Below, piece by piece: positions 4,478 to 35,167 of a DNA stretch of 36,334 bases; positions within the stretch are counted from its first letter, which is position 1, and the number at the start of each line of letters is the position of its first letter. This DNA is from Betaproteobacteria bacterium (GTDB lineage Bacteria; Pseudomonadota; Gammaproteobacteria; Burkholderiales; Usitatibacteraceae), in the NCBI GenBank assembly GCA_025362705.1, contig JANYFH010000232.1, positions 1 through 36,334 of the forward strand, given 5' to 3'. The position numbers and the translations under genes are program-made. The notes under the pieces are model-generated. The model did not search any database. It was given only the letters and a program-made list of their open reading frames with translations, and had not been told where the DNA came from.

Positions 4478-4641
4478 TACTTGTTCCCGGGAGAAAACAA
4501 AAATCATGGCAATTCGCTCCTGAACATTTGGATTTCGTAATCACGCTAAATAACAAACTGGCGAGCCAGATCAAGGATGAAATGGACAAGTTTGCCGGTA
4601 GGTAAAAAAGCTAAAGTGACCATCGATTTAATCGGTAAAGT

Positions 4642-4718
4642 CAAGAACCGGTGCGATTCACAGGCACAAATGCCTTCGAGATCCGCGCCAAATGGCGTTC
4701 TACGATTTACGCAACACC
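4642..4718 (+). repeat. Dispersed structured intergenic repeat, copy R1
   Basis: CAAGAACCGGTGCGATTCACAGGCACAAATGCCTTCGAGATCCGCGCCAAATGGCGTTCTACG; gapless match to R3/R4/R5/R7 with ATGGCG at repeat positions 51-56; internal hairpin AGGCA-CAAA-TGCCT. Confidence 0.75.
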
Positions 4719-10799: not shown

Positions 10800-11974
10800 T
10801 GTTGGCGACCATTGTTACCGTCTGCAAGAAAGAGCTCCTCGATCACCTGCGCGACAGGCGCACCGCCGCAATGATTTTTTTCCTGTCGATTGCGATGGGG
10901 CCGTTGTTGTTGTTTGGCTTGACACAGTTCATCGCCAGCGTGGAAAAGAAAGCCGAAGCGCGCGAAGTGTATGTGCAGGGCAAGGATAACAGTCCGGAAA
11001 TTGTTAACTACTTCGCGCGTCAAGATGTCACCATCAAGGATCCAAAGCCGGATTTTCGCGAGCTGATTAAAAACGGCAAGCACGACCCGGTGCTCGTGAT
11101 ACCAAAAGAATTTGCGGAAAAATTCAGTACTGGCACTGCCCAAGTGGAACTCGTGTTCGATGATACGCGCCAGGATTCAGGCAAGGTCTCCATCGGTGTG
11201 CTGCGCAGATTGATGCTCGGATTCAATGCAGAGGCTTCAACACAGCGCCTGATTGCACGCGGCATATCGCCGCAACTCACGCGTGTAGTCGATGTGCAAG
11301 ATGTGAATCTTGGCACGGCGGCGCAGCGCGCGGCAGGTTTGCTGTTCATTATTCCCTGGATCACACTGCTCGGTTGCGTGAGCGGGGTGACGGCAATTGC
11401 CATTGACGTTACAGCAGGCGAACGTGAGCGCGGATCACTGGAGCCATTGTTGATGAATCCGGTGTCACGCGCGGGACTTGTGACGGGCAAATGGCTGGCT
11501 GTCGCGCTCTATGGTCTGACAGTCGCCACGCTCACGATGTGCGGGTTCGCGTTAACTCTGAATTTTGTGCCGTTGCCAAATCTGGCCAGTGTGTTGTCGA
11601 TCAGCCCGGCGCAGTATTTCGGCTTTGCAATCACGATGTTTTCATTCGCGCCTGCGATGGGAGCTTTGCAAATGTTGATCGCCACCTACGGCCGCACCTA
11701 CAAGGAGGCGCAAACGTATGTGTCGTATCTCATCATGGCCGTTTCGATGGCGCCCGCGATCAGCATGCTGGCGCAGTTCAAGGACGCAACGTGGCAGTTA
11801 TTTGTACCGATGCTGGGGCAGTTGATGGTGATTACGCGAATCCTGCGTGGTGAGGCCGTGACGACGATCCATTACCTGCTGCCGTTCGCGATTAACGCGA
11901 CTCTTTGTCTGGTTGCGGTCGTGCTCATTTCCAAATTGCTTACCAAGGAGAAAATTATTTTCGGACGTGCTTAA
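10796..11974 (+). CDS. ABC transporter permease (NatB-like, ABC-2 type)
   Basis: CKKELLDHLRDRRTAAMIFFLSI, ITAGERERGSLEPLLMNPVSR-type segment (DVTAGERERGSLEPLLMNPVSRAGLVTGKW); ATGA overlap with NatA-like gene. Confidence 0.88.
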   Translation: MMLATIVTVCKKELLDHLRDRRTAAMIFFLSIAMGPLLLFGLTQFIASVEKKAEAREVYVQGKDNSPEIVNYFARQDVTIKDPKPDFRELIKNGKHDPVLVIPKEFAEKFSTGTAQVELVFDDTRQDSGKVSIGVLRRLMLGFNAEASTQRLIARGISPQLTRVVDVQDVNLGTAAQRAAGLLFIIPWITLLGCVSGVTAIAIDVTAGERERGSLEPLLMNPVSRAGLVTGKWLAVALYGLTVATLTMCGFALTLNFVPLPNLASVLSISPAQYFGFAITMFSFAPAMGALQMLIATYGRTYKEAQTYVSYLIMAVSMAPAISMLAQFKDATWQLFVPMLGQLMVITRILRGEAVTTIHYLLPFAINATLCLVAVVLISKLLTKEKIIFGRA

Positions 11975-12149
11975 GGATCCGCTGATCAAGTCCATTCCGC
12001 AAATCTTGCGTCGATATTGGGGCATCTGCAGGCCGCAGGCCGTGTTGCACTCCTCGTGCGGTAGCTTAAGCAACACACCTTCGTCGCACGCCTTGCATAT
12101 GCCCCAATCTCAACACAATCTTTTCGAAAGCGACTTAATCAGAGGTTCC
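11975..12149 (+). mobile_element. MITE-like long-hairpin element, copy 1
   Basis: Imperfect ~55-bp terminal inverted repeats (GGATCCGCTGATCAAGTCCATTCCGCAAATCTTGCGTCGATATTGGGGCATCTGC / GCATATGCCCCAATCTCAACACAATCTTTTCGAAAGCGACTTAATCAGAGGTTCC); flanked by TTAA at 11971-11974 and 12150-12153; second, inverted copy at 30334-30497. Confidence 0.8.
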
Positions 12150-12207
12150 TTAATATTGCGACGTGATGCGGCGGTGAAAAACAGCAACCGCAAGGTATCA
12201 TCCCGCT

Positions 12208-14205
12208 ATGTCAGAAATAAGCACGATCTTCGGCCCCGATGGGCCACTTGCCAAACGTATTGAAGGTTTTCGTCACCGCCAGAGCCAGATCGAAATGGCG
12301 GAAAAAATCGATGCCGCCATCAAGCGCGCGGGGGTACTGGTCGCTGAGGCGGGCACCGGCACTGGCAAGACGTTCGCCTATCTTGTTCCGGCGCTGCAGT
12401 CTGGCGGCAAGGTAATCATTTCGACGGGTACCAAGAACCTTCAGGATCAGCTTTTTCGTCGCGATATTCCCACCGTCATCAAGGCGCTGGGCATTCCTGT
12501 CAGCACCGCGTTGCTCAAGGGCCGTGCGAATTATGTGTGCCTGCATCATCTCGATGGTGCTATCGCCGACGGACGCTTCCTCAGCCGCGAAGACGTCAAA
12601 CACATTCACATTATTCGCCGCTTTGCTGATCGCTGCCTGAGCGGCGGCGGCACCGGCGACAAAGCGGAATTGCCTGATGTGTCCGAACGATCAAGCGCAT
12701 GGCCGGCAGCAGTGTCAACGCGGGAAAATTGTCTTGGCTCGCAATGTGCGCAGTACGCTGAATGCTTCGTCATGAAGGCCCGCAAAGCCGCGATGGAAGC
12801 AGAAGTGGTGGTCGTGAATCACCATTTGTTTTTCGCCGACCTGGTTCTGAAAGACGACGGCGCGCAGGATCTATTGCCGGCCTGCAACACTGTGATATTC
12901 GATGAGGCACATCAGTTACCGGAAACGGCAACGATGTTCTTCGGCGAAGTCGTTACGACTTCGCAATTGATCGAGCTCGCACGCGACTCACGCCTCGCCG
13001 GTGTTGAGCACGCAGGCGACTTCAAGGATTTGCAGGAGTCTTCAGGCGCACTCGACAAGGCTGCGCGTGATTTACGGCTGGTGATGCATGAAGACAACAC
13101 TCGCATTCCCGGCAAGGCGATCACCGAACGCGAAGGCTTTGCGGATGCATATGCCGATGTGCAGGAGAAAATTGCCGAACTGCGTGAGATGCTCGAAAGC
13201 CAGGCCGCACGCGCGCAAGAACTCGCCAATTGTCTCGAGCGCGCAGATGATTTCGCCAGCCGCATGACGCGCTGGCAGGATTCCAGCATCGAAGGTTATG
13301 TGCGCTGGGCAGAAGTATTCGGACATTCGCTCGCACTCCACCTGACACCGCTATCGATTGCCAATATTTTCAAGAGCCAGGTATTCGGCCAGAAACGCGC
13401 GTGGATTTTTACGTCAGCGACACTTGCTGTGAAAGGCGAATTTTCACACTACCAGACCGAAATGGGTTTGGTGAATGATCAATCTGCCGATGATTTCGAG
13501 GACGATGCGTTTGCCGAACGCAGCGTCGAAACCGCGTTCTGGCCATCGCCCTTCGACTACCCCAATCAGGCGTTGCTCTATGTGCCTGACAAAATGCCCG
13601 CGCCAAATACGTTTGAACATACTGAAGCCGTGGTCACTGCGGCGTTACCTTTGATCGAGGCTGCTGCCGGGCGCGCCTTCCTGCTGTTCACCTCATTGAA
13701 GGCGATGGATCGCGCTTACGAATCGCTGAAACTGCACGCCGAAAAGCGCGGCTGGGAATTTCCGCTTCTGGTGCAAGGTGAAGGCACGCGCAATGAATTG
13801 CTTGAACGCTTTCGTAAGCTCGGCAACGCCGTGCTGGTGGCCAGCCAGTCGTTTTGGGAGGGCGTCGATGTCAAGGGTGATGCCTTGTCACTCGTCGTGA
13901 TCGACAAGCTTCCCTTCGCACCGCCAGATGATCCTGTACTCGCCGCGCGAATCGACGCGATCAATCAGTCCGGCGGTAATGCATTCATGCAGTATCAGGT
14001 GCCGCACGCGGCGATTGCGCTGAAGCAGGGCGCGGGGCGGTTGATTCGCGATGAGACTGATCGCGGTGTGCTGATGATCTGCGATCCACGACTGGTCGAG
14101 AAGCCCTACGGCAAACGTATCTGGCAAAGCCTGCCGCCGATGAAACGGACGAGAGTGGAAGCGGAGGCAGTCGAGTTTTTCAGTGCCGAGAGCATGGTTC
14201 CCTAG
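12208..14205 (+). CDS. ATP-dependent DNA helicase, DinG/YoaA family (XPD-like)
   Basis: VAEAGTGTGKTFAYLVPAL, conserved Cys cluster (YVCLHHL...CLGSQCAQYAEC), VVVNHHLFFADL, IFDEAHQLPE, ASQSFWEGVDVKGDALSLVVIDKLPF, QGAGRLIRDETDRGV. Confidence 0.92.
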   Translation: MSEISTIFGPDGPLAKRIEGFRHRQSQIEMAEKIDAAIKRAGVLVAEAGTGTGKTFAYLVPALQSGGKVIISTGTKNLQDQLFRRDIPTVIKALGIPVSTALLKGRANYVCLHHLDGAIADGRFLSREDVKHIHIIRRFADRCLSGGGTGDKAELPDVSERSSAWPAAVSTRENCLGSQCAQYAECFVMKARKAAMEAEVVVVNHHLFFADLVLKDDGAQDLLPACNTVIFDEAHQLPETATMFFGEVVTTSQLIELARDSRLAGVEHAGDFKDLQESSGALDKAARDLRLVMHEDNTRIPGKAITEREGFADAYADVQEKIAELREMLESQAARAQELANCLERADDFASRMTRWQDSSIEGYVRWAEVFGHSLALHLTPLSIANIFKSQVFGQKRAWIFTSATLAVKGEFSHYQTEMGLVNDQSADDFEDDAFAERSVETAFWPSPFDYPNQALLYVPDKMPAPNTFEHTEAVVTAALPLIEAAAGRAFLLFTSLKAMDRAYESLKLHAEKRGWEFPLLVQGEGTRNELLERFRKLGNAVLVASQSFWEGVDVKGDALSLVVIDKLPFAPPDDPVLAARIDAINQSGGNAFMQYQVPHAAIALKQGAGRLIRDETDRGVLMICDPRLVEKPYGKRIWQSLPPMKRTRVEAEAVEFFSAESMVP

Positions 14206-14257
14206 CACTGGTGCGGGCTCCAGACATGAAATGTCCAGAGTACCGCGCCAATGCTGG
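14202..14257 (+). repeat. Dispersed structured intergenic repeat, copy R2 (overlaps dinG-like stop codon)
   Basis: CTAGCACTGGTGCGGGCTCCAGACATGAAATGTCCAGAGTACCGCGCCAATGCTGG; stem of positions 1-15 with 42-56 (one mismatch) and nested GACAT-GAA-ATGTC hairpin. Confidence 0.8.
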
Positions 14258-14377
14258 TGTTATTAATAATTGTTGGAGTCACGACGCAAATCAATCAAAC
14301 ATTGTTGATTCGAGCGCATCGGTTCTGTTCGGCTATGATTACTGCTCCATTGCCTTTAGGCTGCATAAGGGATTTGA

Positions 14378-16927
14378 ATGATCTACCGGTTCGCTACGGG
14401 GCGTTTTTTTAGTGCGGCAATCCGAGTCCTGTTGTTATTAGGAATATGTGCGTCCGTTGTCGCCCAGGTGGCAACAGTCTCGCAACCGGTGTCGAGGCAT
14501 CCGCTCGAAATACGAGCGCTTACTGATCCCGAAGGCGTGATTCGCGAACTTCCGGCCCGCGTGCAGGCGGCGACGGCGGCAATGGATTTTAAAGAACTGT
14601 CCCTGTTGCACCTTGCGGAATCAAACGCTTGCCGTGTCATCGCCGATTGGCAGTGCCAAAGTAATGCTGCCGCCCGCGCGCGCAAGGCGGCTGAGACGGC
14701 AAATTTGCCCGAGCTGCAGGCGCGGGGCCTGATCCTTGAAAGCCGCGGCCGTATGGCCATGCAGGATTTCAGTCGCACTTCGCAATTGCTTGGTGAAGCC
14801 GAGCGCATTCTGAAGCTACAGGCGTTTCCAGAATTGAGCGCCGATGTATACCTGGCTTATTCCTCGTTGAGCTATGCGGTGGGCAAGCACGCCAAAGCTG
14901 CTGAATACGCTGGACTCGGATTGGCAGTGCTCGCGGACAATCCGGCCTTGTTGATACGCGTCCGCTTGTTGCGGAATCAGGCACGAGCCATGGCCCAACT
15001 TGGCAACACTGCCGGCGCACGAATGGTGCTGAAACAAGCTTTGGAATTGGTCGACAAAATTCAGGATCCAAAGCTGAGTGCCGAACTGCACCTGGAAGAC
15101 GCGCGAATCGCACGGCTCACGGGTGATATTCCTACGCAGATCGAAAACGGTCGGCGCATCCTCGCGCTGGGTGCGCAATTGAGCAATTCACAGCTCACCG
15201 GCCTCGGACACGAAGTTCTCGGACTCGCTGCACTCAACCAATCGGATAATGTATCTGCGGAACGGGAGTTGCGGTTGGCTTACACATCGTTTCGCGATCT
15301 CAAGCTTGACCGGGACGAACGTCGTGTTTTGCGGTCGTTGATACGCAGTTTGCTGGGACGCAATATTCCTCGCGCCGAACTTGAAACACTGATGGCGCGC
15401 TCGCTTGCCCTTGAGGCCATGCTGGAGGCGGACGACCGCAACATGGCGGCCGACGACTTTGAAGCTCGACTCAAATACGCGCAGCAGGAACTCGATGTAC
15501 AACGATTGGAAGCCGCCGCCGCGCTGGCCGCAGAGCGCGCCGTGGCGTTGGCTGATCGGGAGCGCCTGTCCACGACTGTTGCCTTGCTGAGTCTGGGCCT
15601 GGTGGTGGTTTTTGGCGTGTTGCTGGTCACGCAGCGCTATTTCAACGCACGCTTGAAGCAGGCGCTTGCAAATTTGCAGGAAAGTGAATCGCGTTACCGC
15701 ATGCTTGCCGATAACTCGCGCGATCTGGTCGTCCGCATGCGGCACGACGGACACCGCCTGTATGTCTCGCCCGCGGCCAAAGACCTTTTAGGTATGGAAC
15801 CGGCCGAAATTGCAAAGCCCGGTTGGGATCTGGTGCATCCGGACGACCGCGGACATCTTGTCGCGGCGATCTGTGATCTGAGCGAAAACGGCGGGTCTGC
15901 ATCGGTTGTATATCGTGCCAGACATGCCGACGGTCACTATGTCTGGATTGAAGCCCTGGCCCGCCTCGTGCCGAGCCCTGATGATGGTGGTCTGCCGGAA
16001 ATTATCTATTCAGGACGCGATATTACCGCTCGGGTCCGCGCGGAAGAGGCATTGTCGATTAGCGAAAGCCACATGCGCGCCGTCACCGACAATATTCCGG
16101 CGATGATCGCGTGTGTCGACAAGGACCAGCGCTATACCTTTGCCAACGCCTTCATGGGCAGTGTATTTGGTGTCGATCCACGGTCCATGATTGGCCGCAC
16201 CATGCGTGAGGTTCGTGGGGAAGAAATCTATGGCGCGATAAAGTCGCACGCGGAAGCCGCGTTGCGCGGCGAGTCGGTGAGCTTTGAGGGCACGGGCGAA
16301 GCGCTTGGCAAGCTGTATCACTATCAGTCCAACTATGTGCCGAACCGGGACGCGGATGGCACCATACAAGGGTTTTACGCGCTCACATTTGATATCACTC
16401 AACTAAAGCTTGCCGAGGCCGAACTCGATCGTATGGCGCGCATCGACAGCTTGAGCGGAGTCGCAAATCGCCGCTATTTCGAAGAGCGTCTCACGGATGC
16501 GCTGGCACGCAGCCGCCGGCAGGGGACTGCGCTTTCCCTGCTGTGCCTGGATATTGATCACTTCAAATCGATCAACGACACCTACGGTCACCCGGTGGGA
16601 GATGCGGTGATCGTCGCGTTCGCTGCCACGCTTCAATCGTGCATTCGCGAGGATGATGTGGTTGCGCGCATCGGTGGCGACGAATTTGTGCTGCTGATCC
16701 AGCAGGCTGCACCGGAATCCGGCGAAAACGTTGCCAAAAAATTACTCACGATCATGCAACAACCCGTCACGGTGGACGGCGCCACACTGATCGTCAGCGC
16801 CAGCATTGGGGTCGCCTTTGCCACCTGCGCCACCTCGGCATCGGCGCTAATGGATCTCGCCGACAAGGCCTTGTATTCGGCGAAGCAATCAGGGCGCAAC
16901 ACCTACCGGATGGTAGTCGGCGAATGA
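14378..16927 (+). CDS. Membrane sensor diguanylate cyclase: TPR-like N-terminal region, transmembrane segment, two PAS domains, GGDEF
   Basis: Signal-like N-terminus, helical repeats, TM TVALLSLGLVVVFGVLLV, PAS segments (ESRYRMLADNSRDLVVRM; SESHMRAVTDNIPAMIACVD), GGDEF domain RIDSLSGVANRRYFEERL...VARIGGDEFVLLI. Confidence 0.92.
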   Translation: MIYRFATGRFFSAAIRVLLLLGICASVVAQVATVSQPVSRHPLEIRALTDPEGVIRELPARVQAATAAMDFKELSLLHLAESNACRVIADWQCQSNAAARARKAAETANLPELQARGLILESRGRMAMQDFSRTSQLLGEAERILKLQAFPELSADVYLAYSSLSYAVGKHAKAAEYAGLGLAVLADNPALLIRVRLLRNQARAMAQLGNTAGARMVLKQALELVDKIQDPKLSAELHLEDARIARLTGDIPTQIENGRRILALGAQLSNSQLTGLGHEVLGLAALNQSDNVSAERELRLAYTSFRDLKLDRDERRVLRSLIRSLLGRNIPRAELETLMARSLALEAMLEADDRNMAADDFEARLKYAQQELDVQRLEAAAALAAERAVALADRERLSTTVALLSLGLVVVFGVLLVTQRYFNARLKQALANLQESESRYRMLADNSRDLVVRMRHDGHRLYVSPAAKDLLGMEPAEIAKPGWDLVHPDDRGHLVAAICDLSENGGSASVVYRARHADGHYVWIEALARLVPSPDDGGLPEIIYSGRDITARVRAEEALSISESHMRAVTDNIPAMIACVDKDQRYTFANAFMGSVFGVDPRSMIGRTMREVRGEEIYGAIKSHAEAALRGESVSFEGTGEALGKLYHYQSNYVPNRDADGTIQGFYALTFDITQLKLAEAELDRMARIDSLSGVANRRYFEERLTDALARSRRQGTALSLLCLDIDHFKSINDTYGHPVGDAVIVAFAATLQSCIREDDVVARIGGDEFVLLIQQAAPESGENVAKKLLTIMQQPVTVDGATLIVSASIGVAFATCATSASALMDLADKALYSAKQSGRNTYRMVVGE

Positions 16928-17004
16928 ACGTTTGGCGAGTCGCCTCGATTGTTTCAGGCAAATCGTAGGCACAGATCGCGATGTATTTTCAGTAGCGCTT
17001 TTTC

Positions 17005-17081
17005 CCAGCACAAAGGGGCGCAGAACGCCATCTGGCGGGCATCACAGGCTGAAAGAGCCCGGGAATCCGTACCAGTGCTAG
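17005..17081 (-). repeat. Dispersed structured intergenic repeat, copy R3
   Basis: Minus strand CTAGCACTGGTACGGATTCCCGGGCTCTTTCAGCCTGTGATGCCCGCCAGATGGCGTTCTGCGCCCCTTTGTGCTGG; 7-bp closing stem CTAGCAC/GTGCTGG (one G-U). Confidence 0.82.
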
Positions 17082-17125
17082 TTTCAGTGCGAGGCTGGGC
17101 TCGCCACGTCAATGTGCCGCAAAAT

Positions 17126-17155
17126 AAAAAAGCCGACGCTATGCGGCGGCTTTTT
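17126..17155. terminator. Bidirectional rho-independent terminator
   Basis: AAAAAGCCGACGC-TAT-GCGGCGGCTTTTT, between convergent GGDEF and DUF3455-like genes. Confidence 0.85.
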
Positions 17156-17189
17156 AGGATGCCGCAATGCTTGCCGGCACTGAAGGGTA

Positions 17190-19817: not shown

Positions 19818-19933
19818 GGCAAAAGAAAGTGGCTGGAATTGTCTGAATGATTCGATACAACACTCACTATATCGAGTCAGGCGCATTTATTCCTGAGCGC
19901 TTGGGTCATGGTACTGTGAGTGCTTGACAAACT

Positions 19934-20010
19934 CAAGCACTGGCGCGGCTTTTCAGACATTTATGCTTTGGAATGCGCGCAGAATGGCGTTCTACGTTAC
20001 TTTACGCTAA
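19934..20010 (+). repeat. Dispersed structured intergenic repeat, copy R4
   Basis: CAAGCACTGGCGCGGCTTTTCAGACATTTATGCTTTGGAATGCGCGCAGAATGGCGTTCTACGTTACTTTACGCTAA; ATGGCG at repeat positions 51-56, gapless with R1/R3/R5/R7. Confidence 0.8.
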
Positions 20011-20055
20011 GAAAAAGTCAGCAACAACGGCATGAGCGTCCGTCCAATTTACTTA

Positions 20056-21780: not shown

Positions 21781-21940
21781 TGGCAGGGCATCCGTGGGCT
21801 TTCGATGATGGTTGTATCGTAATTCATGGCAGCGCTCCAATATGAGTGAATACTGTGATTAGACGGACGGTCAAGCGACTTTGGATTTGCCAGTGAATAA
21901 AATAGATCAGCATTGCGCGAACTACGATGAGGTACAAAGG

Positions 21941-22017
21941 CCAGTACTGGCGCGGGTCTTCGGGACGTTTGTGGCTGGCAGGTCGGCAAAATGGCGATCT
22001 GCGTGAATTTGTGCTGG
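21941..22017 (+). repeat. Dispersed structured intergenic repeat, copy R5
   Basis: CCAGTACTGGCGCGGGTCTTCGGGACGTTTGTGGCTGGCAGGTCGGCAAAATGGCGATCTGCGTGAATTTGTGCTGG; same 77-nt length as R3; closing stem CCAGTAC/GTGCTGG. Confidence 0.8.
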
Positions 22018-22085
22018 GAAAATCGTTTGCTAGAAATAATCCGTGGTACGCCCCCCATTACTAAATCGAACGTGCAAGCTTTAAT

Positions 22086-26372: not shown

Positions 26373-26392
26373 GCAACACGAAAATTTAAACT

Positions 26393-26460
26393 CTAGCGCT
26401 GGCGAGGGTCGCAGGGCATTTTCCTTCGGCATCACGATCAGCGCCTCCATCGTTGCGCGA
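26393..26460 (+). repeat. Possible divergent copy (R6) of the dispersed structured repeat
   Basis: CTAGCGCTGGCGAGGGTCGC... directly after a CDS; GCGCTG (pos 4-9) can pair with CAGCGC (pos 47-52); rest diverged. Confidence 0.4.
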
Positions 26461-26650: not shown

Positions 26651-28051
26651 ATGACTGCTTTGTTCGATCCGCTGCTAACGAGTGCGTTGACGCTCGACGC
26701 GCTCTCTGCCGGTCTTGCCGGACATGATGGCATCGCCGCGCGCCAACACCTCCGGCTCACGCGGTCGCTTGATGCCGCAATGCGGGGCTCAACGTTTTAC
26801 CGTGAACATCTACGTGGTGTGATCCCGGGCGTTACACCGTTGCGTAATTTGCCGACCGTCACGCGGGGCGAGCTGATGGTACGATTCGACGATTGGGTGA
26901 CTGACCCGAAACTGAAGCTGGGTGACATTCGGCAATTTATTGCGAATCCGCGACGCATCGGTGAGGCTTACCTCGATAAGTACATGATCTGGGAAAGCTC
27001 CGGAACCTCGCACCAGCCGGGCGTATTTGTTCAGGACGCACACGCGATGGCGGTTTACGATGCGCTGGAGGCGGTACGACGCAGTACGCCGCGCCTGCTC
27101 CATCGCTGTTTCGATCCCATGTTTCAGACCGAGCGCGTCGCCTTTGTCGGTGCCATTGGCGGACATTTTGCGAGCGTCGCATCGATACTGCGCTTACGCC
27201 GAATCAATCCATGGATGAAGACATCCGTGCGTTGCTTTTCGATCATGCGAGCCACCGGTAGCCTGGTGAACGAACTCAACGCATTTGCGCCCACCGTGAT
27301 TGTGACTTACCCGACAGCCGCGCTCGTGTTGGCCGATAAAACCACGCGCAGATCGCTGAGAGTCACGCCGCAAGAAGTCTGGACCGGTGGCGAAAAATTG
27401 ACGGTCAGCGCGCGTCAGCGGATCGAACATGCGCTGGGGTGCACAGTGCGCGACAGCTATGGTTCATCGGAGTTTTTCGCGATGGGTTGGGAGTGCGCAC
27501 GCGGGCGAATGCACGCCAATACCGATTGGATGATTCTTGAGCCGATTGATGAACACGGACGTCCGGTGCCGGCGGGTCAGCGTTCCCATTCCACCCTGCT
27601 CACCAATCTCGCCAATCATGTGCAGCCACTGATTCGCTATGAACTTGGCGACCAACTGACCATGAGTCCCAAACGCTGTGAATGCGGTTCACCGCTGCCA
27701 GTGATCGAGGTCGAAGGCAGGACCGATGATTTGCTGGAGATGGCAGGTCGCGACGGGCAACCGGTGATACTGCTGCCGCTGGCGTTGACGACGGTACTCG
27801 AGGACGAAGCAGGCGTGTTCGATTTTCAGTTGCGTCAGCGTGGTCTTCACACGCTCGTACTGTTACTGAATATGCAAGGTCCACAGGCCGCAGACGCGGC
27901 GGCGCGTTGTCGTACGGCATTGAAACGATTCGCGGCGGCGCAAGGTGTGACACTTTGCCGCATCATGATCGAGCTGGGAAAGCCGGCTTCAGCGGGGCGC
28001 AGTGGAAAGGCGCAACGGGTGGTGGCGAGTAAGGTGCACGTGCGGCACTGA
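26651..28051 (+). CDS. PaaK/CapK-like adenylate-forming enzyme
   Basis: IWESSGTSHQPGVFVQD, RDSYGSSEFFAMGWEC, LTNLANHVQPLIRYELGDQLTMSPKRCECGSPLPVIEVEGRTDDLLEM. Confidence 0.8.
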   Translation: MTALFDPLLTSALTLDALSAGLAGHDGIAARQHLRLTRSLDAAMRGSTFYREHLRGVIPGVTPLRNLPTVTRGELMVRFDDWVTDPKLKLGDIRQFIANPRRIGEAYLDKYMIWESSGTSHQPGVFVQDAHAMAVYDALEAVRRSTPRLLHRCFDPMFQTERVAFVGAIGGHFASVASILRLRRINPWMKTSVRCFSIMRATGSLVNELNAFAPTVIVTYPTAALVLADKTTRRSLRVTPQEVWTGGEKLTVSARQRIEHALGCTVRDSYGSSEFFAMGWECARGRMHANTDWMILEPIDEHGRPVPAGQRSHSTLLTNLANHVQPLIRYELGDQLTMSPKRCECGSPLPVIEVEGRTDDLLEMAGRDGQPVILLPLALTTVLEDEAGVFDFQLRQRGLHTLVLLLNMQGPQAADAAARCRTALKRFAAAQGVTLCRIMIELGKPASAGRSGKAQRVVASKVHVRH

Positions 28052-28066
28052 CCGCTGGTAAAAACT

Positions 28067-28143
28067 CTAGCACTGGCGCGGAGTTCATGGCACTTTTCTT
28101 CCGAAATCCTCGCCAAATGGCGACTTACGTATTGTTCTGCGGA
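28067..28143 (+). repeat. Dispersed structured intergenic repeat, copy R7
   Basis: CTAGCACTGGCGCGGAGTTCATGGCACTTTTCTTCCGAAATCCTCGCCAAATGGCGACTTACG; ATGGCG at positions 51-56. Confidence 0.8.
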
Positions 28144-28173
28144 AGAAATTGCAAAGAATTTGGTAGTGAGCAG

Positions 28174-29520
28174 CTACGCCACAAACGTTAATCGCGCCTC
28201 AGTACCGCCGCCTGCACGCGGTAGCAAATCAAACTTGGCGCTATGCATGCGCGCGATGCGCTCGACAATCGCGAGCCCAAGTCCGGCGCCGGATTCTCCG
28301 CTGCGCGCGTTATCCAGTCGCGTAAACGCTTTCTTGAGCCGCTCCACTTCGCTTACCGGAATTCCCGGGCCGCGATCAAAAACGCTCAGCACATAAGCGC
28401 CATCCGTTTCGCGACGCGTTTGAATCAGGATTTCGCCACCGCCATGTCGCGCTGCGTTGTTGATGAGATTGTCGATGGCGCGCTGCATCGCGACGGGACG
28501 CAACATCAGCGGCGGTAAGTCTGCAAGTTCGGTGGTTGCCGTGATTTGCATGCGAGCCGCGCGTTCGGCAGCGCCTTGCGCCAACTGCGTGAGATTCACG
28601 CGTTGCGGTGGCTCGCCTGATTCATCGCGCGCGAAGTCGAGAAACTGGTCGACCACCAGATTGATGTCGGTGATGTCTTTTTCCAGGGCACTGCGTGTGT
28701 CCTGGTCCGCGGGCAGCATTTCCACACCGAGCCTGAGGCGCGTGAGCGGCGTACGCAGATCGTGCGAGACACCGGCCAAAAAGGTGGCGCGCTCCTGATC
28801 AAGTCGCGTCAGGTCGGTGCGCATTTGATTGAATGCGGTTGCAACGGCACGCACTTCGCCGGGACCCATTTCAGTGACGGGTGGTGGTGTCTTGCCCTGG
28901 CCAAGTGCACGCGCCGCGCTTGCCAAGGCTTCTAGCGGCCGAATGACCCGCCACATCAAAAACACTGCGCCGACCAATGACAGAATTGCGCCAAGCACGC
29001 CCCAGCCAATCCAGGCGAGCGAGAAATCCGGTTCGATCACGCGGCTGCGAGGGAACACGACCCAATAGTAAGTTGAGCCTACCGGCAATTTGGTGATGAG
29101 TACCGGCGGCGGTGTGCCTTGCACGCCATCAGCGGAGGGCAAGACCCGGGGCGGGCGCTGGTAGACGAAGATGTCCGCCTCCGGCCCCAATTGTTCGTGC
29201 AGGCGTTCACGTACCGCGCGGGTGGCCGGCAAGTCTGGCGCTGGTTCGAGCTCCTCGGTAATGCGTTGCGGCGGAATGATACGAATGCCTTTTTCTTCGC
29301 GCAGTTTCACCAAAAATTCGCGATGCTGCGCAAGCGGAATGACCTCCAGCGCCGCGCGGATGGTTTTCAATTGACTGAGATAACCGACTGCGATGAGTTG
29401 AACGCGCGGCGATTGCGAGTAATACCGGAACAACAATACCGATGCCAACTGGCTCGCAAGCAAGGCCGATGCAATGACCAGCGCAGTGCGGGCCAGGAGG
29501 GATTTTGGTATCAGGGACAC
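28174..29520 (-). CDS. envZ: EnvZ-like sensor histidine kinase
   Basis: HAMP-like segment, AGVSHDLRTPLTRLRLGVEML, DNLINNAARHGGGEI, VFDRGPGIPVSEVERLKKAFTR, GAGLGLAIVERIA. Confidence 0.88.
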   Translation of the reverse strand: MSLIPKSLLARTALVIASALLASQLASVLLFRYYSQSPRVQLIAVGYLSQLKTIRAALEVIPLAQHREFLVKLREEKGIRIIPPQRITEELEPAPDLPATRAVRERLHEQLGPEADIFVYQRPPRVLPSADGVQGTPPPVLITKLPVGSTYYWVVFPRSRVIEPDFSLAWIGWGVLGAILSLVGAVFLMWRVIRPLEALASAARALGQGKTPPPVTEMGPGEVRAVATAFNQMRTDLTRLDQERATFLAGVSHDLRTPLTRLRLGVEMLPADQDTRSALEKDITDINLVVDQFLDFARDESGEPPQRVNLTQLAQGAAERAARMQITATTELADLPPLMLRPVAMQRAIDNLINNAARHGGGEILIQTRRETDGAYVLSVFDRGPGIPVSEVERLKKAFTRLDNARSGESGAGLGLAIVERIARMHSAKFDLLPRAGGGTEARLTFVA

Positions 29521-29569: not shown

Positions 29570-30331
29570 CTACGCGTGCTTCTGCCCATCCGGCACGAAC
29601 ACGTAACCCAGGCCCCAGACCGTTTGCACATAACGCGGATTGGATGGATCCTCACCAAGCAATTTGCGTAACCGGGAGACCTGTACATCGATGGCCCGGT
29701 CAAACGTATCGTGTTCACGCCCGCGCGCGAGTTCGGTGAGTTTGTCGCGTGACAGTGGTACTCGCGCGTGTTCGACCAGCACTTTCAGCAAACCAAATTC
29801 ACCCGTGGTCATGGGCAGTGATTTGTCATCGCGCAGCAGCGAACGTGTGCCCAGGTTCAGGCTGAACGGGCCAAACAGCACAACCGTATCGTTGTCAGCC
29901 GGTGCACCCGGTGTCGGTAGCGGCACCTGCCGGCGCAGAACTGCGTTGATGCGGGCGACCAATTCACGCGGATTGAATGGTTTGGACAAATAATCGTCGG
30001 CACCGATTTCAAGGCCGACAATGCGATCAATGTCATCCCCTTTGGCGGTCAGCATGATGATCGGAATATTTGCCTCCGCTGCGCTGGAAGCACGCAGACG
30101 GCGACAAATGGCGAATCCATCCTCGTTCGGCAACATGACATCGAGCACCACCAGATCGTAGCGGCTGCGCGTGAATGCGCGATCGAGTGCCACGCCATCG
30201 GGCACGGTGTCGGCGGCGAAACCCTGCTCGGTCAGATAGCGTTTTAACAAGTCGCGCAGACGCAAGTCGTCGTCGACAACAAGAATACGATGGCGGGGGA
30301 GGGGATGCGGGTGAGGGTTGGCGTTGTTCAT
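29570..30331 (-). CDS. ompR: OmpR-like response regulator
   Basis: RILVVDDDLRLRDLLKRYL, DLVVLDVMLPNEDGFAICRRLR, winged helix C-terminus RAIDVQVSRLRKLLGEDPSNPRYVQTVWGLGYVFVPDG. Confidence 0.9.
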   Translation of the reverse strand: MNNANPHPHPLPRHRILVVDDDLRLRDLLKRYLTEQGFAADTVPDGVALDRAFTRSRYDLVVLDVMLPNEDGFAICRRLRASSAAEANIPIIMLTAKGDDIDRIVGLEIGADDYLSKPFNPRELVARINAVLRRQVPLPTPGAPADNDTVVLFGPFSLNLGTRSLLRDDKSLPMTTGEFGLLKVLVEHARVPLSRDKLTELARGREHDTFDRAIDVQVSRLRKLLGEDPSNPRYVQTVWGLGYVFVPDGQKHA

Positions 30332-30333
30332 AG

Positions 30334-30497
30334 GGAAGCTCTGATTGAGTCGCTTTCGAAGAGATTGTGTTGAGATTGGGGCATATGCAAGGCGTGCGAC
30401 GAAGGTGCGTTGCTTAAGCTACCGCACGAGGAGCGCAACACAGCAGATGCCCCAATATCGACGCAAGATTTTCGGAATGGACTTGATCAGAGGTTCC
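30334..30497 (-). mobile_element. MITE-like long-hairpin element, copy 2 (inverted relative to copy 1)
   Basis: GGAAGCTCTGATTGAGTCGCTTTCGAAGAGATTGTGTTGAGATTGGGGCATATGC ... GATGCCCCAATATCGACGCAAGATTTTCGGAATGGACTTGATCAGAGGTTCC; reverse complement matches 11975-12149 end to end apart from a short internal insertion in copy 1. Confidence 0.8.
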
Positions 30498-30746
30498 ATA
30501 AGCGCATATTAGTGGTCTCGTGGGTAGCCTGCAGGGTAAACGACAATCCAGTTGTAAGTAAATGTTAGCAAAGACCGGGACAAGCAGCGACGGGAGTGAG
30601 TGTCGTTACATGCAGTTACCAAGCGCATGCAACTGAATGGGACTTTCGACGTTCTATTGGTTAACCTGTGAATGTGTATTCGCATTCGCTGTTGAGCGCA
30701 TCCGCTACAGGTTTTTCGATAGCATCAATTTACATTGGAGAACACC

Positions 30747-33772: not shown

Positions 33773-33784
33773 TTGGAGACCAAA

Positions 33785-34957
33785 ATGAATCGCCGCAAAT
33801 TTTTAAGTGCTGTTGGCAGTCTTCCATTGATGGGCACAATCAATGGCGTCGCCTGGGCCGCGGCGCCGACGACAGCTGCTTCCACGCCGTATAACAACCT
33901 GCTGGTACTGATCGAATTGAAAGGTGCCAATGACGGCCTGAACACAGTTATCCCTTTCACCAATCCGCTCTATGCACAACTGCGTCCGCGACTCGCCATC
34001 GCGCGCGATCAGGTATTGCAACTGTCCGAGCAGGAGGGCTTGCATCCCGCATTGCAACCCTTGATGCCGCTGTGGCAGAACAAAGAGCTCGCAGTGGTGC
34101 AGGGTGTCGGTTATCCCAACGCCAATCTTTCGCATTTTCGCTCCATCGAAATCTGGGATACCGCATCGAAGAGCGATGAGTATCTCGATGCCGGCTGGCT
34201 CGCACGCGTATTCGCGCAAACACCCGCGCCACGCCAGTTTGCGGCCGACGGTGTGGTGGTGGGTTCGAGCGACATGGGGCCGCTGTCAGGGCTGGGGGTG
34301 CGTACGATTGCACTGGCGGATACTGCGCAATTCCTGCGCAACGCCAAGCTCGCGCAGTCCGGCACCGATGAACGCAACGCCGCGCTGAAGCATATCCTTG
34401 GCGTTGAAAACGAGATTGTCCACGCAGCCAGCAAGCTCAACGCCAATCGCGTATTCAAAACCGAATTTCCGCGTTCTGCATTTGGCAATCAGGTGCGCAC
34501 TGCGGCGCAGTTGGTCGCAAGCAACGCCGGCATGGCAACGATCCGGCTTACTTTGTCCGGCTTTGATACGCATGCCGGTCAGTTGGGAACACAGGCAAAC
34601 CTGCTCAAGGATTTGGCCGAGGGTACCAGCGCGTTGAAGGCGGCATTGACAGAACTGAATCGCTGGGATTCCACATTGGTGATGACGTACGCAGAGTTTG
34701 GTCGTCGCCCGAAAGAAAACCAAAGCGGCGGAACTGACCACGGCACGGCCAATGCGCACTTTGTCACCGGCGGCAAAGTCGTTGGCGGCATCTACGGGCA
34801 AGCACCGCAATTGAATCGCCTCGATGGCAATGGCAATCTGCCTTTCGCGGTTGATTTTCGCAGCATGTACGCCACCGTGATCGACAAATGGTGGGGACTG
34901 AATTCAGACAAGATTTTGCAGGGAAAATTTGCACCGCTGGATTTTGTGAAGACTTGA
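33785..34957 (+). CDS. DUF1501 domain-containing protein
   Basis: MNRRKFLSAVGSLPLMGT leader; LVLIELKGANDGLNTVIPF, SGFDTHAGQLGTQANLLKDLAEG, TDHGTANAHFVTGGKVVGGIYGQAPQL. Confidence 0.92.
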   Translation: MNRRKFLSAVGSLPLMGTINGVAWAAAPTTAASTPYNNLLVLIELKGANDGLNTVIPFTNPLYAQLRPRLAIARDQVLQLSEQEGLHPALQPLMPLWQNKELAVVQGVGYPNANLSHFRSIEIWDTASKSDEYLDAGWLARVFAQTPAPRQFAADGVVVGSSDMGPLSGLGVRTIALADTAQFLRNAKLAQSGTDERNAALKHILGVENEIVHAASKLNANRVFKTEFPRSAFGNQVRTAAQLVASNAGMATIRLTLSGFDTHAGQLGTQANLLKDLAEGTSALKAALTELNRWDSTLVMTYAEFGRRPKENQSGGTDHGTANAHFVTGGKVVGGIYGQAPQLNRLDGNGNLPFAVDFRSMYATVIDKWWGLNSDKILQGKFAPLDFVKT

Positions 34958-34992
34958 ATGATGTAGCGTGCACAGCGTAAATAGCTTAATCG

Positions 34993-35048
34993 TTAGCACT
35001 GGTGCGGTTTTCAGGCAATAAGTGTCTGTAAAGCCCCGCCGGTTCTAG
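34993..35048 (+). repeat. Dispersed structured intergenic repeat, copy R8
   Basis: TTAGCACTGGTGCGGTTTTCAGGCAATAAGTGTCTGTAAAGCCCCGCCGGTTCTAG; gapless with R2; nested hairpin CAGGCA-ATAAG-TGTCTG. Confidence 0.78.
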
Positions 35049-35167
35049 TGTTTTTACTATTTCTCCTTTGTGCCGCACCGGTGTGTGAAGCGGGTTGCCG
35101 GACTTGATCTGAGGCTACCCGGGCATGCGCCGCTTATAATTGGCGCTTGCAATTTACTCATGCCGCC

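Follow-up and report, generated by a model that had tools for sequence, protein, structure and literature searches.

What keeps a short dispersed palindrome foldable in a bacterial genome: selection on the fold at each site, or the way in which the repeat spreads? The question is raised by a window of 36,334 nt, the whole stretch of DNA analysed here, from the draft genome of a Betaproteobacteria bacterium (G000). Two repeat copies in this window, at 14202 and 34993, had been proposed from the letters alone to hold a folded structure conserved by compensatory base changes. Our analysis suggests that the repeat is probably a REPIN-like, non-autonomous palindromic mobile element, in which palindromy is maintained in the replicating sources while resident copies drift.

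Both sequences are present where the sequence-only reading placed them, positions 1-15 do face 42-56 in each, and the nested hairpins described there exist. The unit, given as 14202-14257, was correctly located but drawn too short: it measures 66 nt, and its two short-subtype copies occupy 14197-14262 and 34988-35053, both on the plus strand. The first contains the TAG stop (14203-14205) of a helicase gene (12208-14205), and the second lies about 30 nt past the stop of a DUF1501 gene (33773-34957). Altogether the window holds eight copies, one of them partial. Those reported at 4642, 17081 and 21941 do belong to the repeat, but we assign them to a long subtype of about 89 nt, as a diverged copy at 4638-4708 (plus strand), a copy at 17000-17082 on the minus strand, 3' of a GGDEF gene (14378-16927), and a copy at 21936-22022 (plus strand). 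Two further long copies are found on the plus strand at 19929-20017 and at 28062-28150, the latter between convergent genes (26651-28051, plus strand; 28174-29520, minus strand), and the partial copy is a weak plus-strand match of 18 bits at 26388-26432. Near the long copy at 17000-17082 there is also a canonical intrinsic terminator (17126-17157, AAAAAGCCGACGCTATGCGGCGGCTTTTT), which is unlike the repeat itself.

The short subtype is an imperfect palindrome with consensus AAACTCAAGCACTGGCGCGGTTTTCAGGCCAAAAATGGCCTGAAAGCCCCGCCAATGCTAGAGTTT, derived from 65 copies of G000 found by profile; its ends read AAAC...GTTT or, more fully, AAACTC...GAGTTT. Two inverted conserved words of about 20 nt, approximately AAACWCWAGCAYTGGYGCGG, flank a 26-nt spacer of constant length that is able to form a hairpin, which is the architecture expected of REP/REPIN families. 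Facing positions are Watson-Crick in 58% of cases on the true axis versus 21-32% on neighbouring axes (51 short copies), far above chance, and strong hairpins fold in most copies. The element ends are sharp: conservation outside the 66-nt unit drops to about zero, save for faint A/T-rich patches 4-10 nt beyond the ends. Indels are rare, being absent from 101 of the 108 near-full-length matches and from all 64 copies in G002, a second species of the genus. The long subtype has its 5' half in common with the short one, and its 3' part ends in ...CGCCAAATGGCGTTCTACG followed by a weakly conserved tail.

The repeat is abundant and taxonomically narrow. Its core, CACTGGYGCGG, has 100 exact matches in the draft genome versus 16 for a reversed control pattern. 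A profile search of the same genome gave at least 150 matches, many of them double counts of a palindromic copy that matches on either strand; the non-redundant copies in the sampled loci, short and long forms together, number 112. G000 thus carries at least 100 copies, as expected of a high-copy, intergenic, palindromic REP/REPIN repeat, and extrapolation of the density in this one window would give several hundred per genome. We found the repeat in all 13 genomes (species) of one uncultured Burkholderiales genus. The rest of the order is nearly devoid of it: a match at E<=1e-5 occurs in 8 of 299 sampled order genomes, and six of these eight belong to the genus. The named matches are uncultured Betaproteobacteria/Burkholderiales MAGs, and a match in Chitinimonas is half-length. 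Matches from a sister genus (L134, L135, L136, L138 and L143) are alike between genomes and have no AAAC/GTTT ends; we judged them unrelated to the dispersed family.

Among the copies of G000 we saw no sign of compensatory evolution. The two changes offered as such, 2/55 (T-G versus T-A) and 8/49 (T-A versus T-G), are one-sided wobble changes and not double changes, and the list of mismatches in the two copies was incomplete, the 34993 copy having a further C·C mismatch at 13/44. In a set of 51 copies, picked by exact match to the 5' arm and so with little of that arm free to vary, Watson-Crick cells at facing positions numbered 917 versus 942 expected from independent columns, and the covarying pairs anticipated by the sequence-only reading did not appear, no axis pair being found among the 45 best corrected mutual-information pairs. 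Nor did RNAalifold, one of its proposed checks, recover a consensus stem in the G000 copies; it returned two trivial pairs only. Within a copy, the two arms are no more complementary to each other than to arms taken from different copies (outer stem, p=0.36), and in the inner stem own arms pair worse than arms of different copies (p=0.999, 51 copies). Because the register of the inner hairpin varies between copies, such fixed-axis counts may be depressed; a register-independent comparison with two-copy chimeras likewise showed that real copies fold no better on either strand. The paired share (78.4% versus 78.8% in shuffles), the number of double-change cells (32 versus 35) and, for the 65 copies found by profile, similarity to their own reverse complement (0.555, versus 0.583 to that of other copies) all give the same result for G000. 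Its copies are star-like, without copy-specific complementarity.

These results bear directly on the proposal that the copies form a family of structured non-coding RNAs kept for their fold, which we disfavour and regard as very improbable. The strong hairpins in most copies and the one strongly covarying pair in G002 described below speak for it. However, an Rfam scan of the window gave no match, and in G000 we detected no strand preference, no orientation bias and neither covarying pairs nor a consensus structure. G·U pairs are not in excess over A·C beyond what column composition predicts in the 51 copies (164 versus 163 expected; 145 versus 137 expected), and together with the lack of orientation bias this argues against a strand-specific RNA.

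A different picture emerges in G002 and between species. In G002, pair -2/51 of our unit numbering (the same as 2/55 above) covaries strongly, with 22 C-G, 10 A-T and 9 T-A copies: 41 are paired versus 20.8 expected, and none of 2000 shuffles reached as high. The remaining 29 pairs jointly show no excess (1408 versus 1422), with 7/42 (p=0.014) and -4/53 (p=0.036) leaning towards covariation. Whole G002 copies fold somewhat better than chimeras (-41.85 versus -40.65, sd 0.49), and they are nearer to their own consensus than those of G000 (0.84 versus 0.72), the former value being inflated by the choice of the best model matches. For 253 copies pooled from ten species, 4920 cells are paired. Shuffling the 3' letters across the whole pool lowers this to 4554, and shuffling them within species only to 4879, so that differences between species account for about 89% of the excess pairing. 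The within-species share is if anything overstated, since for species beyond G000 and G002 each window was placed around its own best palindrome, a choice that slightly inflates copy-level pairing; independent events are few because the species fall into a few groups. Double changes that keep pairing between species include 9/40 (C-G to G-C), 16/33 (C-G to T-A) and 11/38 (G-C to C-G). Positions 3/46, 9/40 and 11/38 are mostly unpaired in G000; G002 and G012 tend to restore pairing there through a change in the 3' arm, and some copies of G003, G007 and G009 do so through a change in the 5' arm. Compensatory changes between the two arms number none in G000, one pair in G002 and several between species. 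Positions 17/32 of G002 may in addition leave a single base bulged out of the inner hairpin; it shows as A·G or C·T according to the orientation and recalls the bulges described in REPs.

The earlier interpretation of a conserved fold is therefore partly supported. That selection or mechanism acts on the fold rather than the sequence does not hold for single copies of G000, which show no covariation, but it does at the level of the family, as seen in the G002 pair and in the switches between species; it fits the source lineages of the repeat and not the copies in the window. A mechanism of spread explains the conservation of the fold better than an RNA function at each site.

The uneven conservation along copies and the rarity of indels could instead reflect selection at each site. 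The 112 copies lie 3' of genes, with 36 in convergent, 45 in tandem (co-directional) and 9 in divergent gaps, the others being inside genes (5) or at contig edges (17). Their orientation relative to transcription shows no bias (23 versus 22 in tandem gaps). Element-free gaps of 60-600 nt at the same loci comprise 3 convergent, 51 tandem and 32 divergent ones, a contrast that is indicative, given that gene calls relied on a simple hexamer score and that the loci had been selected around copies. This location is what one would expect if each copy were selected at its site as a functional bidirectional terminator of transcription or a 3'-end hairpin. The A/T-rich patches outside the ends point the same way, the T-rich patch on the right flank being stronger downstream of transcription in tandem contexts (T 0.43 for ++ versus 0.23 for --). 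So do the 3' ends of the helicase and DUF1501 genes, where several species have a copy of one subtype or another, although this may reflect old insertions, repeated insertion or selection. A true U-tract is nevertheless absent, with a weak T-rich patch in its place; compensatory changes are lacking among copies; and the lower share of canonical terminators at gene ends with a copy (10 of 101) than at those without (16 of 98) is not significant (p=0.21). Moreover, G001 has an ortholog of the copy at 34988-35053; the two are about 85% identical and their flanks 87%, so that the element is roughly as diverged as its surroundings. A terminator role is possible for some copies; as an account of the family we consider it unlikely. 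After the helicase gene, three species (L184, L185 and L186) have a different conserved 3' piece, AAAAAAATCCCGGCGATGTCACCACCGCCGGG...TACGAGGAGGCAC, where G000 has the 66-nt repeat.

We return, then, to spread as the probable cause, and to the known systems that the repeat resembles. REPINs are inverted REP doublets (Bertels and Rainey 2011, PMC3116915), and the repeat shares with them two conserved inverted words, a less conserved hairpin spacer of fixed length and many intergenic copies. Like the GTAG- and CGTC-tagged REP dimers (PMC3733652), it lies between convergent or co-directional genes near 3' ends. The long subtype is similar to GTAG-tagged dimers also in that its 3' end, read backwards, is a GTAG-tagged hairpin (cGTAG-AACGCCATTTGGCG, ending in CGTAGAACGCCATTTGGCG). 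It is thus conceivable that we are dealing with a classical REP/REPIN family mobilised by a RAYT that is missing from the draft genome or unlinked; besides the match in architecture, abundance and 3' location, 12 of the 13 genus members have Y1_Tnp genes. Several observations nonetheless make this quite unlikely. RAYT genes have been described as invariably having their REPs alongside (PMC2817692), whereas the draft genome itself has no Y1_Tnp match and, using seven models and the GTAG pattern, we found the repeat beside none of ten sampled Y1_Tnp (RAYT-like) genes of the genus, a subset of all those it carries. The consensus of the short subtype contains no GTAG/GTGG or CGTC tag. In the loci searched, the GTAG hairpin is confined to the long subtype (22 of 22) and, unlike in the tagged dimers, is never found alone. 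The repeat also differs from REPINs, for which compensatory changes are said to be common, in that such changes are nearly absent among the copies here.

We therefore say that the repeat appears to work like a REPIN, to judge from its architecture, abundance, constant length and position, rather than that it is one, because two features were sought and not found: a RAYT beside the repeat and, in the short form, a GTAG/CGTC tag. Most likely, we infer, it would spread through a folded single-stranded DNA intermediate recognised by a trans-acting enzyme. Selection for a foldable palindrome would then act on those copies that still replicate, with the consequence that the family consensus changes while pairing is kept, as we observe between species and for one pair in G002. 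Insertion would be preferred, or tolerated, just 3' of genes, where the copies are indeed located. Once inserted, a copy would be inherited vertically and then drift, as in the orthologous pair above, and drift of the residents would account for the lack of compensatory evolution among G000 copies. The need for a foldable palindrome during propagation, combined with drift of residents, is the simplest account of this two-level pattern. A more tentative version, which we think rather unlikely, has the repeat spread by a non-RAYT enzyme, with the symmetry of source copies restored when one arm serves within the hairpin as the template for the other; such template-directed correction would produce compensatory changes without selection on an RNA. 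We saw neither a pair of recently duplicated copies nor an empty site. The closest pair, L012/L024 (0.88), was rejected as a recent duplicate, its flanks being similar too, and is probably part of a larger duplication.

This case separates two easily confused readings of covariation in dispersed repeats. A fold can be conserved in a replicating family while the copies of one genome drift freely, and a few paired changes between two copies are then uninformative about a functional RNA. The family, present in 13 sampled species, also offers a test case for REPIN-like spread without a linked RAYT.

Two other classes of palindromic element deserve comparison. Integron attC sites are imperfect palindromes in which the ends and a mismatch or bulge are conserved while the centre varies, and the repeat resembles them in all these features. 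They are, however, bounded by RYYYAAC...GTTRRRY and stand in cassette arrays; the ends AAACTC...GAGTTT do not match these core boxes and the copies are dispersed singly. MITEs are short, non-coding, dispersed elements with terminal inverted repeats and a target-site duplication. The repeat is likewise short, non-coding and dispersed with inverted-repeat ends, but the 65 copies show no convincing excess of target-site duplications (offsets 0-7, lengths 2-9), and the whole unit is one palindrome.

Half-copies with the 5' arm alone occur in L053, L063, L066 and L105. In L053 and L063 the arm runs straight into similar sequences that include a short open frame (MTYRIRSLPIADLEFK... in L063), and the repeat looks as though cut near its centre. 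We considered whether the four half-copies are ends of a larger transposon and rejected this, as neither a facing partner arm nor a transposase was seen. The window also contains a second dispersed repeat, with two inverted copies at 11969-12153 and 30331-30503 and inverted ends of about 60 nt (...GGACTTGATCAGAGGTTCC); this end adjoins the 66-nt repeat in L004, L013 and L017.
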